From: Billgrantia saliphila
GTDB lineage: Bacteria; Pseudomonadota; Gammaproteobacteria; Pseudomonadales; Halomonadaceae
Assembly: GCF_002930105.1 (NCBI RefSeq)
Contig: NZ_PJRN01000015.1
Coordinates: 1 to 64,000 of the forward strand
Direction: 5' to 3'
DNA length: 64,000 bases
Shown: one piece after another, positions 8,048 to 15,575 of the stretch
How positions within the stretch are numbered: the first letter of the stretch is position 1
Layout: each line of letters starts with the position of its first letter
The notes under the pieces: model-generated
What the model was told of the DNA's origin: nothing
Database searches by the model: none
Seen by the model: only the letters and a program-made list of their open reading frames with translations
Program-made: the position numbers and the translations under genes

Positions 8048-8851
8048 TTAGTTGCTTTGCATGGCTTCTTGCAGGGTCTGGTTATCGTCGATTTCCTCGT
8101 ACTGGTCGCTACCATAGTCGCCGGATTCGCCGCTGTCGCTGGACTGAACCACCAGTTCGCCCTCGTTGCGGATCTCGAGCTCGTCGACCGGGTAGCCCAT
8201 CTCGTCTTCGCCGAAGCCGAGGAAGCCGCCTTCGGAGATGACGACGTAGGCCTCGTTGCTCTCGGTGTCGCGAACCACGCGCTCGACTTCACCGATCTCT
8301 TCGTCATTCTCCTGGCTGTAGACGGTTTGCCCCTCAAGCTCGCTGACCTGCATGGTCATGACGTTATTGGCTTGTGAGGCCTGATCCTGAGAAGCCTGAT
8401 CTGAACTCTGCTCTTCGGAGTCCTGCTGCTCGTCGGGGCTGCGGATTTCCGCCTCGGCCTCTTCGGCCGGATCAACCTCGACATTGGGCTCACCCGTCTG
8501 TTCGACGGTGACGTCGGGCTCGGCTTGATCGACGGTGACGTTGGGGTCTTGCTGCTCGATGGTGACTTCAGGCGGATTCTGTTCGACGGTCACATCGGGC
8601 GGCTCTTGCTCGACCTGAACCTCGGCCGGTTCCTGATCGACGTTGATATCGGCGGGTTCTTCCTCGACCTGGATCTCGGCAGAACCGCTGCCTGACTGGT
8701 TATTCTGATTCTGAGCATTCTCCTCGCTCATCTGCTGCTGCTCGCTCAGGTGCTGCTGGGAATCTTCGTCCTGCGCATCCTGGGCAAGCAGCCCGTGACT
8801 CAGACCAGTGCTCAGTGCACCTACCGCAATGGCAATCGCTGTCCTTTTCAT
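8048..8851 (-). CDS. Secreted acidic repeat protein with C-terminal PRC-barrel domain
   Basis: A 267-residue exported protein. A signal peptide (MKRTAIAIAVGALSTGLSHG) is followed by a Gln/Glu/Asn-rich linker. About eight 9-residue repeats then span residues 60-131, with consensus V-x-V-[E/D]-Q-x-x-P-[D/E/N] (for example VQVEQEPPD, VTVEQNPPE). A Ser/Gln/Asp-rich spacer and a PRC-barrel domain (about 182-252, VYSQENDEEIGEVERVV to VDELEIRNEGELVV) complete it. The protein is very acidic, as expected for a halophile's periplasm. AGGAGG just upstream supports the ATG at 8851. Function unknown; PRC barrels often bind other proteins or RNA-processing partners, but exported forms are little studied. 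Confidence 0.8.
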   Translation of the reverse strand: MKRTAIAIAVGALSTGLSHGLLAQDAQDEDSQQHLSEQQQMSEENAQNQNNQSGSGSAEIQVEEEPADINVDQEPAEVQVEQEPPDVTVEQNPPEVTIEQQDPNVTVDQAEPDVTVEQTGEPNVEVDPAEEAEAEIRSPDEQQDSEEQSSDQASQDQASQANNVMTMQVSELEGQTVYSQENDEEIGEVERVVRDTESNEAYVVISEGGFLGFGEDEMGYPVDELEIRNEGELVVQSSDSGESGDYGSDQYEEIDDNQTLQEAMQSN

Positions 8852-9127
8852 GCCTTTCCTCCTTTCCTGGTTGGCATGCCTTGTGGGCTTGCATCTCAAA
8901 GGCTAGTCAACCTCGCGATGACGTCATCCCTTGGTAACCAAGAAAAACAAAAGAATAAGAAACATGACATAAGACGGTGGTTCATTGCCGGCTCTCGTCG
9001 GGCGTCGGATGCCCATGGCGGCGTGCGAAGGGCGCGACGGGATGTCCCGTCGCGGCACGCTGATGAAGATGGGGTAGGGAGGGCCTGGCCAAAGCGTCAT
9101 GCCATCGAGTCCACAGACCCATCGTAT

Positions 9128-10168
9128 TTATTTCCCGAGCCAGGCCCCACGAGTGGCGGTATAGAGCGTATAGATCGACTGGCTGGCGGTCATGAACAGG
9201 CGATTGCGCGCCCTCCCGGCGAAGCACACGTTGGAACAGACCTCCGGCAGCAGGACGCGGCCGAGCAATTCGCCCTGGGGAGAGAAGACCGCGACGCCAT
9301 CGATGCCTTCGCCTCCGGCGGCGCTCGACCAGATATTGCCGTCCTCGTCACAGGCCATGCCGTCGAAGATGGTGTCCTCACTGCTGACCACGACCTCCCG
9401 GTCGCTGATGCTGCGTCCCTCATCGCCCAGTGTCCAGCGAATGATGCGCGCCGGCTCGTCGGAGTGGGTCGGGGCGCTGTCGCTGACATAGATGCCCCGT
9501 CCGTCCGGTGTCAACACGATGCCATTGGGCTTGACGACCTCTTCGCTCAGGAGAATCGGCTCATCGAGGCCGTCATCGACGTAATAGATAGCCGTCTCCA
9601 GCTCCAGCTCACGCTCGCTGCCTTCGTAGTCGAAGTGAGCGCCGTAGCCGGGGTCGGTAAAGATGATGCCGCCGGAAGGCAGGGCGACCAGGTCGTTGGG
9701 CGCATTGAGCGGCTTGCCCTGGTAGCGCTCGGCCAGCACCGTGGTACTGCCATCCCATTCGTAGCGCAGCACTCGTGGCGGTGTGTGCTCGCAGGCCACC
9801 AGCCGACCCTGCGCATCGAAGGTATTGCCGTTGGAATAGCCGACTTCGTGCCGCAGCACGCTGACCTGCCCCGTGGCTTCGTCCCAGCGCATCTGGCGCG
9901 CGCGCGGGATGTCGCTGAACACGACGTAACGGCCCACGGCATTCCAGGCGGGACCTTCAGTCCACAGACCGCCGCTCCAGTGGCGCTCGAGCGGGGTATT
10001 GAAAATGGTGTAGTTCTCGAAGCGTGGGTCTTCGACCTTCCAGGCGTCGCTGGGATAGCGGGCAGGAGGCGAGGCTTGCGCCCCGCGATAGGCGAACAGT
10101 TGGGGAGTCGTTCCGATGGCGGCCAGGGCGGCCGTTGCCGAGAGAAACTGACGGCGTCCGAGTTTCAT
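9128..10168 (-). CDS. Tat-exported SMP-30/gluconolactonase-type hydrolase
   Basis: A 346-residue protein of the SMP-30/gluconolactonase/LRE family, a six-bladed beta-propeller that hydrolyses sugar lactones with a bound divalent metal. The N-terminus KLGRRQFLSATAALAAIG is a twin-arginine signal, so it folds before export. Propeller landmarks include EGPAWNAVGRYVVFSDIP, NGNTFDAQGRLVACEH, RPNDLVALPSGGI-like NAPNDLVALPSGGIIFTDP, and KPNGIVLTPDGRGIYVSDS with the metal-binding Asn/Asp. The start at 10168 is used because the Tat signal begins there. It is monocistronic. Substrate unknown; periplasmic aldonolactones are likely. Confidence 0.85.
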   Translation of the reverse strand: MKLGRRQFLSATAALAAIGTTPQLFAYRGAQASPPARYPSDAWKVEDPRFENYTIFNTPLERHWSGGLWTEGPAWNAVGRYVVFSDIPRARQMRWDEATGQVSVLRHEVGYSNGNTFDAQGRLVACEHTPPRVLRYEWDGSTTVLAERYQGKPLNAPNDLVALPSGGIIFTDPGYGAHFDYEGSERELELETAIYYVDDGLDEPILLSEEVVKPNGIVLTPDGRGIYVSDSAPTHSDEPARIIRWTLGDEGRSISDREVVVSSEDTIFDGMACDEDGNIWSSAAGGEGIDGVAVFSPQGELLGRVLLPEVCSNVCFAGRARNRLFMTASQSIYTLYTATRGAWLGK

Positions 10169-10649
10169 GGGTCTGTCCTGGTTGTTCTTCGGGTATTGGG
10201 AATGAGCGAGGCGAGCCGTGGCTGCCTCCCAAGAACAAATGTAGAAGCTAGATAGGCGAAAGTCAGACATTCAGCTTGCCGATGCGGCGAGACCGAATGA
10301 GAGACGGGTCGATCCGAGAGGGCGGCGTCACGCGGCCGAAGTCGCGAGGCCCCGCGGTCCCTCGATGGCGGGCAGTGTCGTGGGTGACCGACAGCATCGA
10401 GCGTAATGCGCTGTCCTCTTGCATCGTTCCCCAAGCTGTTCTGGTAAGAAAGTCCGTTGATTGGATGCCGATTTGCGAGCGACGGGATCGTCAAACTTTC
10501 CATCACTGGCAGCATGGTTGTTTCGTAATCGGGCAGCGTATTTTTTTCATCTTTAGAGGGATTAAAAAAACCCCAAGGCAACGCCTCGGGATCGATGTAA
10601 CAATATTGGCCTTTATGGTGCGATTTGTTAATCGGCGGAGGGGTGATCA
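10169..10649. other. 481 bp gap at the left edge of the four-gene cluster
   Basis: No convincing gene is present. The left half is GC-rich and includes the leader of the minus-strand lactonase gene. From about 10480 the sequence becomes AT-rich, with a T8 run near 10530, and a minus-strand terminator lies at 10564-10590. The change in composition marks the junction with the cluster that starts at 10650. Confidence 0.6.
10564..10590 (-). terminator. Orphan rho-independent terminator, minus strand
   Basis: Read on the minus strand, CCCGAGGC and GCCTTGGGG form a stem with one mismatch and a short loop, followed by a run of seven T (complement of A7 at 10564-10570). No minus-strand gene lies to its right before the plus-strand GNAT gene at 10650, so the terminator has no visible client. 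Confidence 0.7.
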
Positions 10650-11213
10650 ATGTCCGCTAACCGAAGTTCGAGGAGAAGTTGGAAGGCGCGAGTCTTGGCT
10701 CCACATGAGGTGGCGGAATATGTAGCGGATATTCGCCAACTCACTCGCGATGAGCAGGAACGCCAGGCGGGCGAATTGCTAAAGGGAATCGATCTCGATA
10801 ATTTTCTCGACAAGGTTCTGGCCAAAGCTGACTTTGCAGTACTGAACGTTGAGGGCAAGTGCTGCGGTTTCTGTGCCTTCTATACTTACGAACCTGCACT
10901 GGAGGCGGCATTCATCACTTTGTTCCTGGTAACGCCTGACGTTCGGCGAAGCGGCATGGCGCGCGGAGTGCTGGAAGTCGTGGCGGGGGCGGCGCTCCAG
11001 TATGGGTTTCGTTATCTGACGCTGCGAGTCCGTCAGGATAATATTCCGGCGATCCGCTTCTATCTAGGTCAGGGCTTCCGAATTGTAAGGCGACATGAAA
11101 GGGACATCGAAATGTCGCTCGAAATGACGGCCTTGGACGGAACTAATACAAGTAAGAATGACAAGAATGGTTCGGAAGTTAATGCGGAAATCAAGAAAAT
11201 AACGGAAATGTAG
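10650..11213 (+). CDS. GNAT-family N-acetyltransferase, first gene of cluster
   Basis: A 187-residue acyltransferase. The acetyl-CoA pyrophosphate loop is visible as LVTPDVRRSGMARGVLE (R-x-x-G-x-A), preceded by the strand AAFITLFLV and followed by LTLRVRQDNIPAIRFYLGQGF, a complete GNAT core from about residue 60 to 155. The 70-residue N-terminal part has no motif I recognise. GGAGGGG lies six bases before the ATG. Base composition is low for the window: I count 47% GC at 11101-11160 and 35% at 11161-11220. The next gene begins within 25 bp. The substrate is likely the amine produced or used by the downstream decarboxylase and ligase (inference). Confidence 0.8.
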   Translation: MSANRSSRRSWKARVLAPHEVAEYVADIRQLTRDEQERQAGELLKGIDLDNFLDKVLAKADFAVLNVEGKCCGFCAFYTYEPALEAAFITLFLVTPDVRRSGMARGVLEVVAGAALQYGFRYLTLRVRQDNIPAIRFYLGQGFRIVRRHERDIEMSLEMTALDGTNTSKNDKNGSEVNAEIKKITEM

Positions 11214-11236
11214 GTTGAATGGACGGAGGGAGGTTG

Positions 11237-12025
11237 ATGGATTTGTTCGCCAGTCTCGATGATTATGAGAAACAGATAAAGGAAAAGGGATGGGTTGTTT
11301 TCGAGGAGGTACTTTCTGCGAACTTTGTTAGCGAACTGAGAGAAGATTGCCTCAAGTGGATCGATATATGCAAGGGCTATCAGATTCGCAATGGGGTGAA
11401 CGCCGACGGTGACGGTACGGCCCATCATTGCCTTGGCGCAGGCGACAGCATTGATCGTTACGTTGATATGCACCTCTTCCATCCGTATATCTCACGTTAC
11501 TTCGGCGACGAGCCTTACATCTGCCATTCCCTGACGCCCATCGGTGGCTTTCCGGGGATGAGATCATATGTCCACAAGTTGCACCGGGATGTGCGCACCT
11601 TGATACCGGGCTACCCGCTGAAGCTGAACATGTTGGTTATGTGCGATGACTTCACGCCTCAGAACGGTACCCTGGTGTTGACGGGATCGCACAACCGCCC
11701 GGACAGGCCCAGCGACGAAGAATTCCAGCGCCTTCACGAGCGCATTGTGGGCCGGGCCGGATCGGTGGTGCTCTTCAACTCCACGTTGTGGCACAAGGGT
11801 GCCGATATTTCGGGCGACCGCGCCAGGGTGGCCTTGACGGTGGGATACGGGCGTGCCTACGTCAAACCGGCCATGGACTATGCCCGCATGCTCGGCGAGG
11901 AGTATGGAAAGACGCTCTCTCCGTTGACGCGTCAGGTGCTGGGGTACAACTCGCGAGTGCCCGTTAGCCTGGATGAGTGGTACCGACCGACCGAAGAGCG
12001 CCTCTACCATGCGGATCAGGGCTGA
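11237..12025 (+). CDS. PhyH-family Fe(II)/2-oxoglutarate dioxygenase
   Basis: A 262-residue double-stranded beta-helix oxygenase. The iron-binding triad is complete: H116-R-D118 (LHRDVR) and H186 (LWHKGAD). R197 (DRARVAL) is placed to bind the 2-oxoglutarate carboxylate. NGTLVLTGSHNRP is a typical PhyH loop. Homologues hydroxylate free or carrier-bound amino acids and acyl chains; ectoine hydroxylase belongs to the same family, but this protein lacks EctD's wording and there are no ect genes here. The ATG at 11237 follows GGAGGGAGG; an in-frame ATG at 11219 lacks a ribosome site. Its stop abuts the decarboxylase start. Confidence 0.82.
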   Translation: MDLFASLDDYEKQIKEKGWVVFEEVLSANFVSELREDCLKWIDICKGYQIRNGVNADGDGTAHHCLGAGDSIDRYVDMHLFHPYISRYFGDEPYICHSLTPIGGFPGMRSYVHKLHRDVRTLIPGYPLKLNMLVMCDDFTPQNGTLVLTGSHNRPDRPSDEEFQRLHERIVGRAGSVVLFNSTLWHKGADISGDRARVALTVGYGRAYVKPAMDYARMLGEEYGKTLSPLTRQVLGYNSRVPVSLDEWYRPTEERLYHADQG

Positions 12026-12026
12026 G

Positions 12027-13292
12027 ATGGCGTTCGACCATGCTTTTCTGAAAAGCGTATCCCAGCAGGTGGGGGGGGCCTTCTACGTCTTCGATGAGGC
12101 CATCTTTCGGAGCAACTATCTGAGACTTCGGGAGCGACTGCGAGCGCATTGGCCGGGCACCGACGTGGCTTATGCCATTAAGGCCAACTACATGCCGGCG
12201 ATCATCGATCTGCTGGCCGCCATGGAAGGCCATGCGGAGGTGGTCTCGCGCTTCGAGTACGACGTGGCCAGGCAGGCTCTGCCGGGAAAGCGGATCATCC
12301 TGAACGGCCCTATCAAGCGAGAAGCCGATTTGAGGCTCGCACTGGCAGCGGGGAGCCAGATCAACCTGGATTCCTTCCAGGAGATCGAGAGCCTCAAGCG
12401 GCTGTCCGGTGAGTTCGGGCGGCTGCGTGTAGGATTGAGGGTCTGCTTTCCGTCGCCTCACTTGACCAGCCGGTTCGGTTTCGAGGTCGACACGGGCGAG
12501 CTGGAGCGTGCGCTCGAGCAGCTTGAGAGCATCGATCGTGTCGAACTCGTGGCGCTGCACTGCCATGCCACCTGCAGGTCGCTCGGCGTCGAGGATCCCG
12601 TCAATCGAGTGCGTCAGCTATGCGATCTGGCTTCCGGCCTGCAGGCGGAACATCCCATCGAGACCCTCAATGTCGGCGGGGGGCTGCTGGGCGAAATGAC
12701 GACGTTCCTCAAAACGCAGTTCCCCTTTCCGGTACCGACCCTGAATGCCTATGCGGACGCCATCGGAGAAGCCTTCGTGCGTCATCGTCCGTCCGCCGTG
12801 ACGCGACTGGTGGTGGAGCCAGGGGTTTCGATGGTAGCCAATGCCATGTGCCTGGTAGCCAGGGTGATGGAGGTTCGCCAACGTCGTCATGGTTGGCAGG
12901 CATTGCTGGACACCAGCATCAACAGCGTCAATCCCACGCACTCCGGCATTCGGCCCGAGCTACATGCCGTGACTCCCCGTGTTCGGACATCGCGCCGCCG
13001 CCTCTTTCGGTTGGTAGGGCATACCTGCATGGAGCACGACGTCATCTGCGACGCACTGACCGCCGATCTCGAGGAGGGAGACTTTGTCGTCGTCGAGAAC
13101 CGTGGCGCTTATTCCCTCAATTACACCCCTCCGTTCATCGTGCCTGCTCCAGCGGTAATCAATCGCCAAGGTGACGTATTGAAGCGAGCGGACGACGCCA
13201 GACAAGTACTGGGAAGCTACAGCCAGACATATTCTGATGCGCTTAAGGATGGCCACAATGAATGTTCTTTTGACGTGTGCGGGAAGGCGTAA
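12027..13292 (+). CDS. Fold-type III PLP-dependent decarboxylase
   Basis: A 421-residue member of the diaminopimelate/ornithine decarboxylase group. The PLP lysine is K52 in VAYAIKANYMP. The Gly-rich phosphate loop is LNVGGGLLG, the barrel His lies in ALHCHATCRSLG, and the phosphate-binding Glu is in VEPGVSMVANA. The C-terminal domain supplies GHTCMEHDVICD (the Cys-Asp pair of the dimer active site) and the Tyr-rich RGAYSLNYTPPF. It is not a housekeeping lysA by context. Its start overlaps or abuts the PhyH stop (ATG 12027; ATG 12009 is an in-frame alternative), and it overlaps the next gene by 35 bp. The substrate is probably an amino acid or amino-acid adduct (inference). Confidence 0.82.
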   Translation: MAFDHAFLKSVSQQVGGAFYVFDEAIFRSNYLRLRERLRAHWPGTDVAYAIKANYMPAIIDLLAAMEGHAEVVSRFEYDVARQALPGKRIILNGPIKREADLRLALAAGSQINLDSFQEIESLKRLSGEFGRLRVGLRVCFPSPHLTSRFGFEVDTGELERALEQLESIDRVELVALHCHATCRSLGVEDPVNRVRQLCDLASGLQAEHPIETLNVGGGLLGEMTTFLKTQFPFPVPTLNAYADAIGEAFVRHRPSAVTRLVVEPGVSMVANAMCLVARVMEVRQRRHGWQALLDTSINSVNPTHSGIRPELHAVTPRVRTSRRRLFRLVGHTCMEHDVICDALTADLEEGDFVVVENRGAYSLNYTPPFIVPAPAVINRQGDVLKRADDARQVLGSYSQTYSDALKDGHNECSFDVCGKA

Positions 13293-14349
13293 TTACCTGA
13301 TTGCCTACTTCAGGGAGGCGCTTGGCGGATGCGGAAGACTGCTGGCTGCGGATTGCTGTGCCCATGCCGCGGCCCTTCAGGAAGCGGACGAGGGATTCAT
13401 TCTGCCGCCGGTGGCTTCATCGGAATACGTGGAACAGCTACTGGCACTCTGTGCTTCGCAAAACGTCAAGCTGGTGGTGCCGCTGAACGATCATGAGTTG
13501 CCCATCCTGGCCCAGGCGCGTGCGCGGTTTCAGGAGATCGAGGTGGAAGTGCTGGTCTCCTCGCCAGAGGTGATCGAGCTGTCCGCCGACAAACTGGCCA
13601 CGGTCAGGTTTGCCCTGTCGGCGGGCCTTCAGGCACCGCAGACGTTCGTGACGCTGGAGAGCGCGGTAAAGGCGCTGGAGCGAGAGGATATCGTCTTCCC
13701 CTTGATCGTGAAGCCTCGCTGGGGAACGGCCTCGCTGGGGATCGAATGGGTCTATGACAGTGAGACCCTCGAGCTGGCCTGGAGGCTGGCGAATCACCGT
13801 CTGCCGCGGCTTGGATTGCGTCACGGCACCTTCCCCGGCGAGGGGCTACTGATCCAGAGCGTGCTGCCCGGCCGAGAGTATGGGCTGGATGTGATCAATG
13901 ATCTGAACGGGAATTATCGCGCCACCTTCGTCAAGCGCAAGCTATCGATGCGGGCAGGCGAGACCGATCGTGCAATCACCGAAGCCAGGCCGGAGCTGGT
14001 CGATGTGGGAAAGCGTATCGGTGAGGCGCTCGGGCACAGGGGAAACCTGGATTGCGATATCTTCTACGACGGTGAACGAGTCTACTTGCTTGATCTCAAT
14101 CCGCGCTTCGGCGGCGGTTTTCCTTTCAGTGCCGAGGCGGGCGCCAACATGCTGTCCGCCTTGATTGCCTGGGTGCGCGGAGAGGAGCCTCCCCACGCTT
14201 GGGATGCCATTCGTGCCGGCATCACCAGCACGAAATGCGATCGTCTCGTTCGAGTGAACGGTTCGGAGAGTAGGGTAAGGGCCCAGGAAGCCAGAATGGC
14301 AGAGCCACGGCTGATGCCCTTGGTCGGTGTGGTCGGCCTCAATACCTAG
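13258..14349 (+). CDS. ATP-grasp ligase, carbamoyl-phosphate-synthase-like
   Basis: A 363-residue ATP-grasp enzyme. The N-terminal preATP-grasp domain is VLLTCAGRRNYLIAYFREAL to VKLVVPLNDHELPIL. The central lysine is in FPLIVKPRWGTASLGI, the purine loop near LLIQSVLPGREYGLDVI, and the metal ligands in GNLDCDIFYDGERVYLLDLNPRFGGGFPFS. Such proteins form amide or ester bonds through acyl-phosphates and are found in amino-acid ligase, PylC-like and polysaccharide decoration pathways. AAGG nine bases upstream favours this ATG, which lies inside the decarboxylase gene. It is the last cluster gene, convergent with the dehydrogenase gene on the other side. Confidence 0.82.
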   Translation: MNVLLTCAGRRNYLIAYFREALGGCGRLLAADCCAHAAALQEADEGFILPPVASSEYVEQLLALCASQNVKLVVPLNDHELPILAQARARFQEIEVEVLVSSPEVIELSADKLATVRFALSAGLQAPQTFVTLESAVKALEREDIVFPLIVKPRWGTASLGIEWVYDSETLELAWRLANHRLPRLGLRHGTFPGEGLLIQSVLPGREYGLDVINDLNGNYRATFVKRKLSMRAGETDRAITEARPELVDVGKRIGEALGHRGNLDCDIFYDGERVYLLDLNPRFGGGFPFSAEAGANMLSALIAWVRGEEPPHAWDAIRAGITSTKCDRLVRVNGSESRVRAQEARMAEPRLMPLVGVVGLNT

Positions 14350-14491: not shown

Positions 14492-15565
14492 TCAGCCGGC
14501 GATGCGCTCGGCGATGGCGCGGCCCAGGCTCGCGGTACTGCCGGTGCCGCCGATGTCCGGGGTGAGCACGGTCTTGTCGCCCGCTTCGAGCACTGCCTCG
14601 AAGGCGGCAACGATGGCGTCGCCGGCTTCCTTGTGACCGAGGTGCTCGAGCATCATTGCGCCCGACCAGATCTGGCCGATGGGGTTGGCGATGCCCTTGC
14701 CCGCGATATCCGGCGCGCTGCCGTGGACCGGCTCGAACAGGCTGGGGAAGGTACCCGCGGGGTTGATGTTGGCCGAGGGCGCCACGCCGATGGTGCCGGT
14801 GCAGGCGGGGCCCAGGTCGGAGAGAATGTCGCCGAACAGGTTGCTCGCCACCACCACGTCGAACCAGTCGGGATGCATGACGAAGTTGGCGGTGAGAATG
14901 TCGATGTGGAACTTGTCGACGCTCACCTCGGGATAGTGGTTCGACATGTCCGCGACCCGTTCGTCCCACCACGGCATGGTGATGGCGATGCCGTTGGACT
15001 TGGTGGCCGAGGTGAGCTTGCGGCGAGGACGCGACTGGGCCAGGTCGAAGGCATAGGTGAGCACGCGATCGACCCCGGTGCGGGTCATCACCGTCTCCTG
15101 GATCACCACCTCGCGTTCGGTGCCCTCGAACATCTTGCCGCCGACGCTGGAGTACTCGCCCTCGGTGTTCTCGCGCACCACGTAGAAATCGATGTCGCCG
15201 GGGCGGCGATCGGCCAGGGGGCTTTTGATGCCGGGCAGCAGCTTGCACGGACGCAGGTTGACGTACTGGTCGAAGCGACGGCGGAACTGCAGCAGGGATC
15301 CCCACAGCGAGATATGGTCGGGTACCGTCTCCGGCCAGCCCACCGCGCCGTAGAAGATGGCGTCGAAGTCCTTGAGCTGCTCGAACCAGTCGTCCGGCAT
15401 CATCTGGCCGTGTTTCGCGTAGTACTCGCAGCAGGCGAAGTCGAAGTGCTCCAGGCTCAGGTCGATGTCGAAGCGCTTGGCGGCCGCCTCGAGTGCGCGC
15501 AGGCCTTCGGGCATCACCTCGTTGCCGATGCCGTCGCCGGGAATGATGGCGATACGATGGGTCAT
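14492..15565 (-). CDS. Tartrate dehydrogenase / D-malate dehydrogenase (decarboxylating) family
   Basis: A 357-residue NAD-dependent beta-decarboxylating dehydrogenase of the isopropylmalate/tartrate/D-malate group. It shows IAIIPGDGIGNEVMPEG, the substrate-binding VNLRPCKLLPGIKSPL and VVRENTEGEYSSVGG, and the metal-binding NLFGDILSDLGPACTGTIG. The VGWPETVPDHISLWGSLL stretch is typical of TtuC/DmlA rather than LeuB. It probably converts tartrate to oxaloglycolate or D-malate to pyruvate. It is the second gene of a minus-strand pair with the dehalogenase-like hydrolase 10 bp upstream, divergent from a LysR gene. Confidence 0.85.
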   Translation of the reverse strand: MTHRIAIIPGDGIGNEVMPEGLRALEAAAKRFDIDLSLEHFDFACCEYYAKHGQMMPDDWFEQLKDFDAIFYGAVGWPETVPDHISLWGSLLQFRRRFDQYVNLRPCKLLPGIKSPLADRRPGDIDFYVVRENTEGEYSSVGGKMFEGTEREVVIQETVMTRTGVDRVLTYAFDLAQSRPRRKLTSATKSNGIAITMPWWDERVADMSNHYPEVSVDKFHIDILTANFVMHPDWFDVVVASNLFGDILSDLGPACTGTIGVAPSANINPAGTFPSLFEPVHGSAPDIAGKGIANPIGQIWSGAMMLEHLGHKEAGDAIVAAFEAVLEAGDKTVLTPDIGGTGSTASLGRAIAERIAG

Positions 15566-15575
15566 GGTCTTCTCC

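Follow-up and report, generated by a model that had tools for sequence, protein, structure and literature searches.

A recurrent acetyltransferase–dioxygenase–decarboxylase–ligase cassette of Halomonas-like bacteria and its possible role in the decoration of surface-glycan amino sugars

We analysed a stretch of 64,000 nucleotides from Billgrantia saliphila (RefSeq assembly GCF_002930105.1, contig NZ_PJRN01000015.1, positions 1 to 64,000), which is called the window here. Positions 10650-14349 of its plus strand carry four intact genes, head to tail, for a GNAT N-acetyltransferase, a PhyH-type dioxygenase, a fold-III decarboxylase dependent on pyridoxal 5'-phosphate (PLP) and a PylC-like ATP-grasp ligase. 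Together they form a real unit. With moderate confidence, we regard this cassette as a portable surface-glycan decoration set that modifies an amino-dideoxy sugar. More tentatively, the decarboxylase would act on an amino acid already linked to a nucleotide sugar and would install, together with the ATP-grasp ligase, a decarboxylated omega-amino acyl amide; a mobile, free-standing cassette would thereby re-tailor the amino-dideoxy sugar of its host.

The cassette was compared with its relatives in other genomes. Of 250 genomes of the family, 19, the own one included, encode a relative of the PhyH protein (E-value 1e-20), and 11-18.5 kb around all 18 others were examined. A degenerate scan based on the decarboxylase alignment, in which exact patterns were required, gave at least 20 loci in 84,980 GTDB species genomes; the 20 scanned loci came from Halomonas and close genera (18), Wenzhouxiangella (1) and Idiomarina (1). 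When both sources were merged and duplicates removed, 22 decarboxylase loci were obtained, window included. Neighbouring open frames came from a home-made caller, so that their ends are approximate and small genes are missed, and several neighbours were named by eye. The contiguous order GNAT-PhyH-decarboxylase-ATP-grasp was found in 11 of the 22 loci, mostly in Halomonas-like bacteria (window, L025, L027-L033, L054 and L057, where the set counts a second GNAT taken from the neighbour gene listing), and L026 has the same order interrupted by a sugar transferase. Because the same gene order exists in other genomes, the arrangement is not due to chance. The first-pass annotation, made from the sequence alone, had proposed that the four genes serve one pathway and had named ordered co-occurrence of the four families elsewhere as a check; they do co-occur in order, though mostly within Halomonas-like bacteria, and this supports its view of a unit.

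The decarboxylase and the ATP-grasp gene co-occurred in all 22 loci and were adjacent and intact in 20 of them; one gene lies between them in L035, and the ATP-grasp gene is broken in L042. L058, L059 and L061 are without both GNAT and PhyH. Given this constant pairing against the loss of PhyH and GNAT, the decarboxylase and the ATP-grasp ligase form the constant core of the cassette, with PhyH and GNAT as optional parts. The PhyH proteins were 68-81% identical to the window PhyH in the ordered sets and 54-58% identical where they stand beside a formyltransferase. A formyltransferase gene adjoins PhyH in L035, L038, L041 and L048, which are without this type of GNAT, while L036 and L039 carry both; L039 and L042 retain only a C-terminal remnant of the first-type PhyH, that of the GNAT sets. 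Outside the family the genes are rare: PhyH was found in 5 of 369 genomes of the class (E-value 1e-30), and the decarboxylase in 4 of 369 genomes of the class and 2 of 398 of the phylum (E-value 1e-60), the own genome being counted each time. No plasmid- or phage-borne decarboxylase was found at E-values of 1e-30 and 1e-20. A decaying cassette was observed in Halomonas urmiana (L042:8735-10676; also L043), in which GNAT residues 9-112 abut a C-terminal piece of PhyH, the decarboxylase is intact and the ATP-grasp gene is in fragments.

The neighbourhoods of these loci were searched with 17 surface-glycan marker proteins (tblastn, E-value 1e-8, within roughly 11-18 kb per locus). The marker families were named by Pfam (Wzy, undecaprenyl-phosphate (Und-P) sugar transferase, formyltransferase, RmlA, DegT aminotransferase, WbqC, ABC transporter, and epimerase/dehydratase of nucleoside diphosphate (NDP) sugars), by NCBIfam (RmlB and further DegT proteins) or by eye (Wzz, a PglF-like protein, glycosyltransferases, Wzx and a dehydrogenase of uridine diphosphate (UDP) sugars). 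At least two markers were found in 16 of the 22 decarboxylase loci versus none of 20 control stretches, and at least one in 18 of 22 versus 2 of 20, counts that are biased toward the test set since the markers were drawn from these same neighbourhoods and from the own glycan loci. The 20 controls were hand-picked offsets, of which 19 lie on contigs with a PhyH match and one on region C11 of the own genome, and they include no genome of L048, L054, L057, L058, L059 or L061.

Three operons are the most telling. Halomonas sp. LBP4 (L054) has a contiguous operon of RmlB-RmlA-DegT-GNAT-PhyH-decarboxylase-ATP-grasp, Idiomarina piscisalsi (L061) has RmlB-RmlA-DegT-decarboxylase-ATP-grasp, also contiguous, and Onishia taeanensis has Und-P transferase-decarboxylase-ATP-grasp-DegT with a PglF-like gene nearby. 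Among nine PhyH loci without the decarboxylase, of which L069 was left out of the marker count, seven have at least two glycan markers (L034, L037, L040, L004, L005, L070 and L071) and L068 has none. Four more distant decarboxylase homologues were also found, three beside an Und-P sugar transferase and one (L148) in a setting that resembles an FslC siderophore locus. Some of these loci deserve mention in their own right. In L070 and L071, a PhyH relative with DegT and WbqC matches stands near flagellin-like and TPR-protein genes (by eye), a possible flagellin glycosylation locus. The megaplasmid of Cupriavidus metallidurans CH34 (L005:2776-10850) has TPR-type, DegT, WbqC, PhyH, methyltransferase-like and ATPgrasp_Ter genes in a row and resembles a glycan island. 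Two loci of distant decarboxylase homologues (L146:5005-10551 and L149:7755-11308) combine an Und-P sugar transferase with an aldolase-like gene and an aminotransferase that looks like the branched-chain type (by eye), possibly another pathway for a glycan substituent.

All four window proteins belong to their families and have intact active sites, as the first-pass annotation had reported. Pfam scores were above the gathering cut-offs for PF00583 (45.5 bits against 20.7), PF05721 (42.7 against 22), PF02784 (76.1 against 23.4) and PF21360 (95.6 against 27), and the ATP-grasp protein passed NF009404 (PRK12767 group 3) with 415.6 bits against a cut-off of 316. The acetyl-CoA loop of the GNAT reads R-R-S-G-M-A. 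The triad of the PhyH protein, H116/D118/H186 when counted from a start at 11237 and H122/D124/H192 from 11219, was invariant in 20 aligned sequences including its own; with the PF05721 match and a predicted fold that matches 2-oxoglutarate oxygenases, it places the protein among PhyH dioxygenases. In alignments of 15 sequences, own included, K58 of the decarboxylase (K52 from 12027), Cys340 and Asp344 were invariant, as were D265, D267, N281 and R283 of the ATP-grasp protein. PADLOC models of anti-phage systems matched none of the four proteins, and a defence island was therefore rejected.

The nearest relative of the decarboxylase by sequence in the PDB is N-citrylornithine decarboxylase (7kh2, FigC/FslC), with which it shares Fold III, the catalytic Lys and Cys, and a C-M-x-H-D loop. 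This loop is C340-M341-E342-H343-D344 in the window, matching M355/H357 of FigC, while LysA has C-E-x-x-D. Over the 22 loci, CM is present in all and H in 20, the exceptions being CMEND in L048 and CMETD in L061. According to the accessible text of PMC7857480, the substrate of FigC is an amino acid that already carries an attached group, its M355 replaces a residue that binds the side-chain amine of the substrate, H357 is predicted to contact the citryl group, and Arg387 pairs with citrate in docking. The same source places in clade 2 enzymes for attached amino acids (FigC, SbnH, AcsE, MccE and BtrK) and also diaminopimelate decarboxylase (DAPDC) and D-ODC, which use free ones (PMC7857480). 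The position of Arg387 is taken by Tyr372 here, in an N-Y-T-P stretch, and by Phe in L061; since the Arg is replaced, the attached group should differ from citrate. The two enzymes differ further in that they are only 22-24% identical in structure alignments, and that FigC/FslC is partnered by a synthetase for siderophores independent of nonribosomal peptide synthetase (NIS synthetase) in a siderophore context, whereas the cassette enzyme is partnered by an ATP-grasp ligase in a mostly glycan context.

Candidate acceptor genes were looked for in the own genome, where glycan-type genes are located in regions C2, C11 and C46. C11 lies by holA-lptE-leuS, the site of the cassette in many relatives, and encodes a PglC-like transferase, a second ATP-grasp protein, a PglE-like aminotransferase and a PglF-like dehydratase, labels that express general resemblance only. 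Its aminotransferase is 67-72% identical to the ones adjacent to the cassette in L025, L039, L048, L058 and L059. No PglD-like acetyltransferase was found among the listed open frames of at least 120 aa at C11, where the extra gene is DUF218. The own genome thus plausibly makes a nucleotide-linked amino sugar, probably a UDP-linked one. Two other genes of this genome were noted. The second PylC-like ATP-grasp protein (L087:9029-11207, in C11) scores 383.8 bits on PRK12767 group 4 (cut-off 390) and sits between the PglC-like transferase and the PglE-like aminotransferase, so an ATP-grasp ligase may replace PglD more widely. A third fold-III decarboxylase (L003:1501-2490, in C21) most resembles the exosortase-associated type, with 225 bits against a cut-off of 478.

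The window copy looks like a displaced cassette, probably horizontally acquired, because it groups with glycan-locus copies, its GC content is low, and relatives have an empty site. In the decarboxylase tree it belongs to a clade of five rows (100/98) in which the other four loci carry 2-4 glycan markers, and in the ATP-grasp tree it is grouped with glycan-locus copies (4 rows, 95/94). Copies with fewer than two markers are scattered over the decarboxylase tree (the window; a group of L027, L028 and L031; L032; L057). GC content rises along the cassette from GNAT (0.52) through PhyH (0.57) and the decarboxylase (0.60) to the ATP-grasp gene (0.61), against 0.652 for the whole window. Both flanking genes are ordinary and on the opposite strand, with an SMP-30/gluconolactonase-like gene upstream (9128-10270) and a tartrate dehydrogenase gene downstream (14495-15571). 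Of 38 close genomes, 24 have the tartrate dehydrogenase (E-value 1e-80), the own genome among them. The 23 others contribute 27 tartrate dehydrogenase loci, since some have a second paralogue, and no cassette gene or SMP-30 gene was found within flanks of up to 1.5 kb at any of these. The empty site is seen in L114, in which WrbA, a PRC-type gene (45% identical) and tartrate dehydrogenase follow one another, with about 150 bp before tartrate dehydrogenase against 5.6 kb in the window; in L119, L124, L128 and L130, WrbA directly adjoins tartrate dehydrogenase. No long pair flanking the cassette as transposon ends was found among the short repeats listed, in which the longest inverted pair has 24 nt (88%), and the window has no tRNA that could be an insertion site.

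The features are listed in Table 1. The genes are separated by 23 bp (GNAT-PhyH) and 1 bp (PhyH-decarboxylase), and the decarboxylase and ATP-grasp genes overlap by 35 bp, which agrees with the close packing described in the first-pass annotation. Starts were picked from upstream sequence and from comparison with relatives. The open frame of PhyH opens at 11219, and the listed start was preferred for its upstream GGAGGG; that of the decarboxylase also opens upstream of the listed start, and a start at 12009 was used in searches. At 8048-8899, next to the inserted segment, lies a gene for an acidic protein of repetitive sequence that matches PRC-barrel and DUF6470. Just upstream of the cassette, a terminator-like hairpin with a T-run on the minus strand (10569-10593) points left; a scan of the region for promoters and terminators gave counts at or below chance, with terminators no more frequent than in shuffles.

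Table 1. Window positions of the cassette genes and of the segment that a relative lacks (pLDDT, predicted local distance difference test).
Feature	Position	Strand	Basis
GNAT N-acetyltransferase	10650..11213	+	PF00583, 45.5 bits; RRSGMA acetyl-CoA loop; same place in relatives; GC 0.52
PhyH-type Fe(II)/2-oxoglutarate dioxygenase	11237..12025	+	PF05721; H/D/H triad; AlphaFold model pLDDT 79
PLP fold-III decarboxylase	12027..13292	+	PF02784/PF00278; best PDB sequence match 7kh2; C-M-E-H-D loop; model pLDDT 83
PylC-like ATP-grasp ligase (PRK12767 group 3)	13258..14349	+	PF21360; NF009404; invariant metal ligands
Segment missing between similar flanks in relative L114	8900..14491	.	SMP-30/gluconolactonase-like gene and four-gene cassette

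A surface-glycan decoration route could run as follows. The ATP-grasp ligase would turn the carboxyl of an amino acid into an acyl phosphate and link it to the amine of a nucleotide-linked amino-dideoxy sugar, probably of the Qui4N type linked to deoxythymidine diphosphate (dTDP) in some relatives and of the UDP-QuiNAc4N type in the branch of the window. The decarboxylase would then strip the alpha-carboxyl from the conjugate to give an omega-amino acyl amide. If Asp or Glu were attached through the side chain, the product would, by our own extrapolation, be a beta-alanyl amide or one like gamma-aminobutyrate. PhyH would hydroxylate and GNAT would N-acetylate the attached group, and in some relatives the formyltransferase would cap the amine. 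Finally, a glycosyl or Und-P-sugar transferase from another locus would insert the sugar into an O-antigen or exopolysaccharide. We infer the substrates, the position of the amine, the order of the reactions and the action in trans of the displaced copy; ligation may come first and decarboxylation may take place on the conjugate. Related structures have been reported. N-acetylated aspartyl, glycyl and allothreonyl groups are known on the Qui4N of O-antigens, and one title cited in the part of PMC10609480 available names an aspart-4-yl, or side-chain, link. N-acetylalanyl-Qui4N in Pseudoalteromonas, acylated bacillosamine, and an Idiomarina O-antigen with a free Qui4N amine are described in the accessible part of PMC3210612.

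Other observations weigh against this route or leave parts of it loose. The 22 loci are not independent, since several occupy one and the same chromosomal glycan site (holA-lptE-leuS, by eye) and two come from one species; although the difference in markers is large, a p-value for it would be misleading. No glycan marker was found in the 17 kb examined around the window copy, nor beside the copies of L028, L031 and L032; L027 has a single formyltransferase-type match on the opposite strand, and L057 has WbqC alone. The product of such free-standing copies could be soluble, and L028 has an apparent ABC sugar-transporter set downstream (by eye) that was not seen at the other free-standing copies. 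The predicted structure of the decarboxylase gave Z values of 34-35 to DAPDC, FigC and BtrK alike, and Foldseek put DAPDC first; because the Z values tie, the fold does not separate the three. The nearest PDB entry of the ATP-grasp protein (2pn1) is labelled merely as a carbamoylphosphate synthase large subunit, so this protein has no characterised close relative. On the side of the acceptor, the best NCBIfam matches of the C11 aminotransferase (PseC, 209.6 bits, cut-off 423.5) and dehydratase (PseB, 174.7 bits, cut-off 407.75), and those of the dTDP-type aminotransferases of relatives to DesI (223-270 bits, cut-off 650), are all below the cut-offs and therefore do not fix the position of the amine on the sugar. 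A dTDP-sugar acceptor is unlikely in the own genome because no gene of RmlA strength was found there, the best NTP_transferase match being 88.9 bits versus 268 for the RmlA of a relative.

Two other explanations are less likely. In one, decarboxylation of an amino acid yields a free amine for PhyH and GNAT to modify, and the ATP-grasp ligase amidates the carboxyl of a uronic acid that belongs to these surface glycans. Genes of the UDP-sugar-dehydrogenase type do occur near L025, L042, L058 and L059 and in 1 of the 20 controls, and O-antigen uronic-acid amides with 2-aminopropane-1,3-diol and with amino acids are known from the part of PMC10609480 available. We consider this unlikely, however, since sugar aminotransferases, which supply an amine, are among the genes nearest to the cassette in L054, L061 and L058/L059, in C11 another ATP-grasp gene is flanked by genes for an Und-P sugar transferase and for a sugar aminotransferase, and the decarboxylase lacks the Glu that DAPDC has next to the catalytic Cys, its loop being like that of the conjugate-acting FigC. 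The other explanation is that of the first-pass annotation, in which an amino-acid-derived metabolite is hydroxylated, decarboxylated, condensed and acetylated to a small soluble amide that may be an intracellular solute or signal. Conjugates can indeed be small, as in siderophores; all four genes stand in order without a glycan marker in the window, L028, L031 and L032, with one doubtful marker in L027; and the transporter-like set of L028 would suit a soluble product. Against it, at least two glycan markers stand beside 16 of the 22 copies (16 of 21 without the window), the free-standing copies are scattered in the decarboxylase tree, and no recurrent transporter, carrier or regulator was noticed beside them in rough gene lists judged by eye. 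Because glycan genes accompany most copies and the window copy, which looks displaced, groups with them, a solute or signal is improbable. The single pathway of the earlier proposal is supported by ordered co-occurrence; its reactions may run in another order, with ligation before decarboxylation.

The resemblance of the decarboxylase to known enzymes suggests two further explanations. A siderophore-type conjugate, with decarboxylation as in rhizoferrin synthesis by FslC/FigC, is what the best PDB sequence match and a hit to the FslC model NF041039 would indicate, but the score of 120.4 bits is far under the cut-off of 500, the citrate-binding Arg is replaced, no NIS synthetase was recognised in the gene lists (by eye, with no aimed search), and the neighbours of the FslC-like homologue L148 resemble MFS transporters (by eye). 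This explanation is very doubtful. It is hardly credible that the gene is a second lysA or a polyamine decarboxylase with unrelated neighbours. TIGR01048 (LysA) is its best NCBIfam match, yet with 138.4 bits against a cut-off of 297.9. A separate, true lysA elsewhere in the genome reaches 502 bits, which removes the objection, named in the first-pass annotation, that this gene might be the sole lysA of the strain. The own LysA has C-E-T-G-D and EPGR where the cassette enzyme has C-M-E-H-D and EPGV (V273 for Arg), and an ATP-grasp gene, intact or broken, accompanies the decarboxylase in all 22 loci. On its score, the separate lysA and the altered motifs, we rejected a lysine or polyamine enzyme.

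The proposed decoration of amino sugars has partial parallels in known systems. The UDP-bacillosamine route uses PglF, PglE, PglD and PglC. In C11 of the own genome and in Onishia, dehydratase, aminotransferase and Und-P sugar transferase types likewise surround an ATP-grasp gene; at C11, in contrast, the ATP-grasp gene takes the place of the acetyltransferase, none of which is among the listed frames, and NCBIfam leaves the subfamily names unsettled. BtrJ of butirosin synthesis is an ATP-grasp enzyme. BtrK is a fold-III decarboxylase (PMC7857480, in its accessible part), and the butirosin pair is thus similar in type to the core of the cassette, whereas the cassette has an ATP-grasp ligase from the PRK12767 group and two additional enzymes, PhyH and GNAT. 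An acyl carrier protein, on which the comparison with BtrI/BtrJ/BtrK turns, is not inside the operon, whose gene spacing leaves no room for one; here the first-pass annotation was right. PylC, the 3-methylornithine-lysine ligase, shares an N-terminal PylC-like domain and the ATP-grasp fold, but the cassette protein scores only 26 bits against its cut-off of 248. Another parallel is given by the O-antigens with N-aminoacylated Qui4N, namely N-acetylglycyl in Shigella dysenteriae 7, N-acetyl-aspart-4-yl in Providencia stuartii O33 and N-acetylallothreonyl in Vibrio cholerae O43 (PMC10609480). In these the amine of a 4-amino-6-deoxy sugar bears an amino acid that is itself N-acetylated, as proposed for the cassette, while a decarboxylated amino acid and this gene set are not described in the accessible part of that source. 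No characterised pathway or paper on this gene set was found in a literature search that left out most subscription journals, in agreement with the first-pass annotation. Nor did the papers found on O-chains include, to judge by their titles, one on the lipopolysaccharide of a Halomonas, and those on WbqC gave no information in their titles or opening abstract lines.

The amino-acid groups found on the sugars of O-antigens and capsules are diverse and can be of immunological importance, and the accessible part of PMC10609480 covers the structures of such decorations, not their biosynthetic enzymes. N-aminoacylated O-antigen sugars are already known, but a decarboxylated omega-amino acyl substituent is not described in the same part of that source. 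The gene set would offer a concrete enzyme pair for a route of N-aminoacylation and decarboxylation, and would account for acetyltransferase and formyltransferase genes that substitute for each other. It would also correct names that hide function, such as diaminopimelate decarboxylase and carbamoyl-phosphate-synthase-like protein. If the proposed order is true, the principle of ligation followed by decarboxylation, known from siderophores, microcin C and butirosin, would hold for surface sugars as well.

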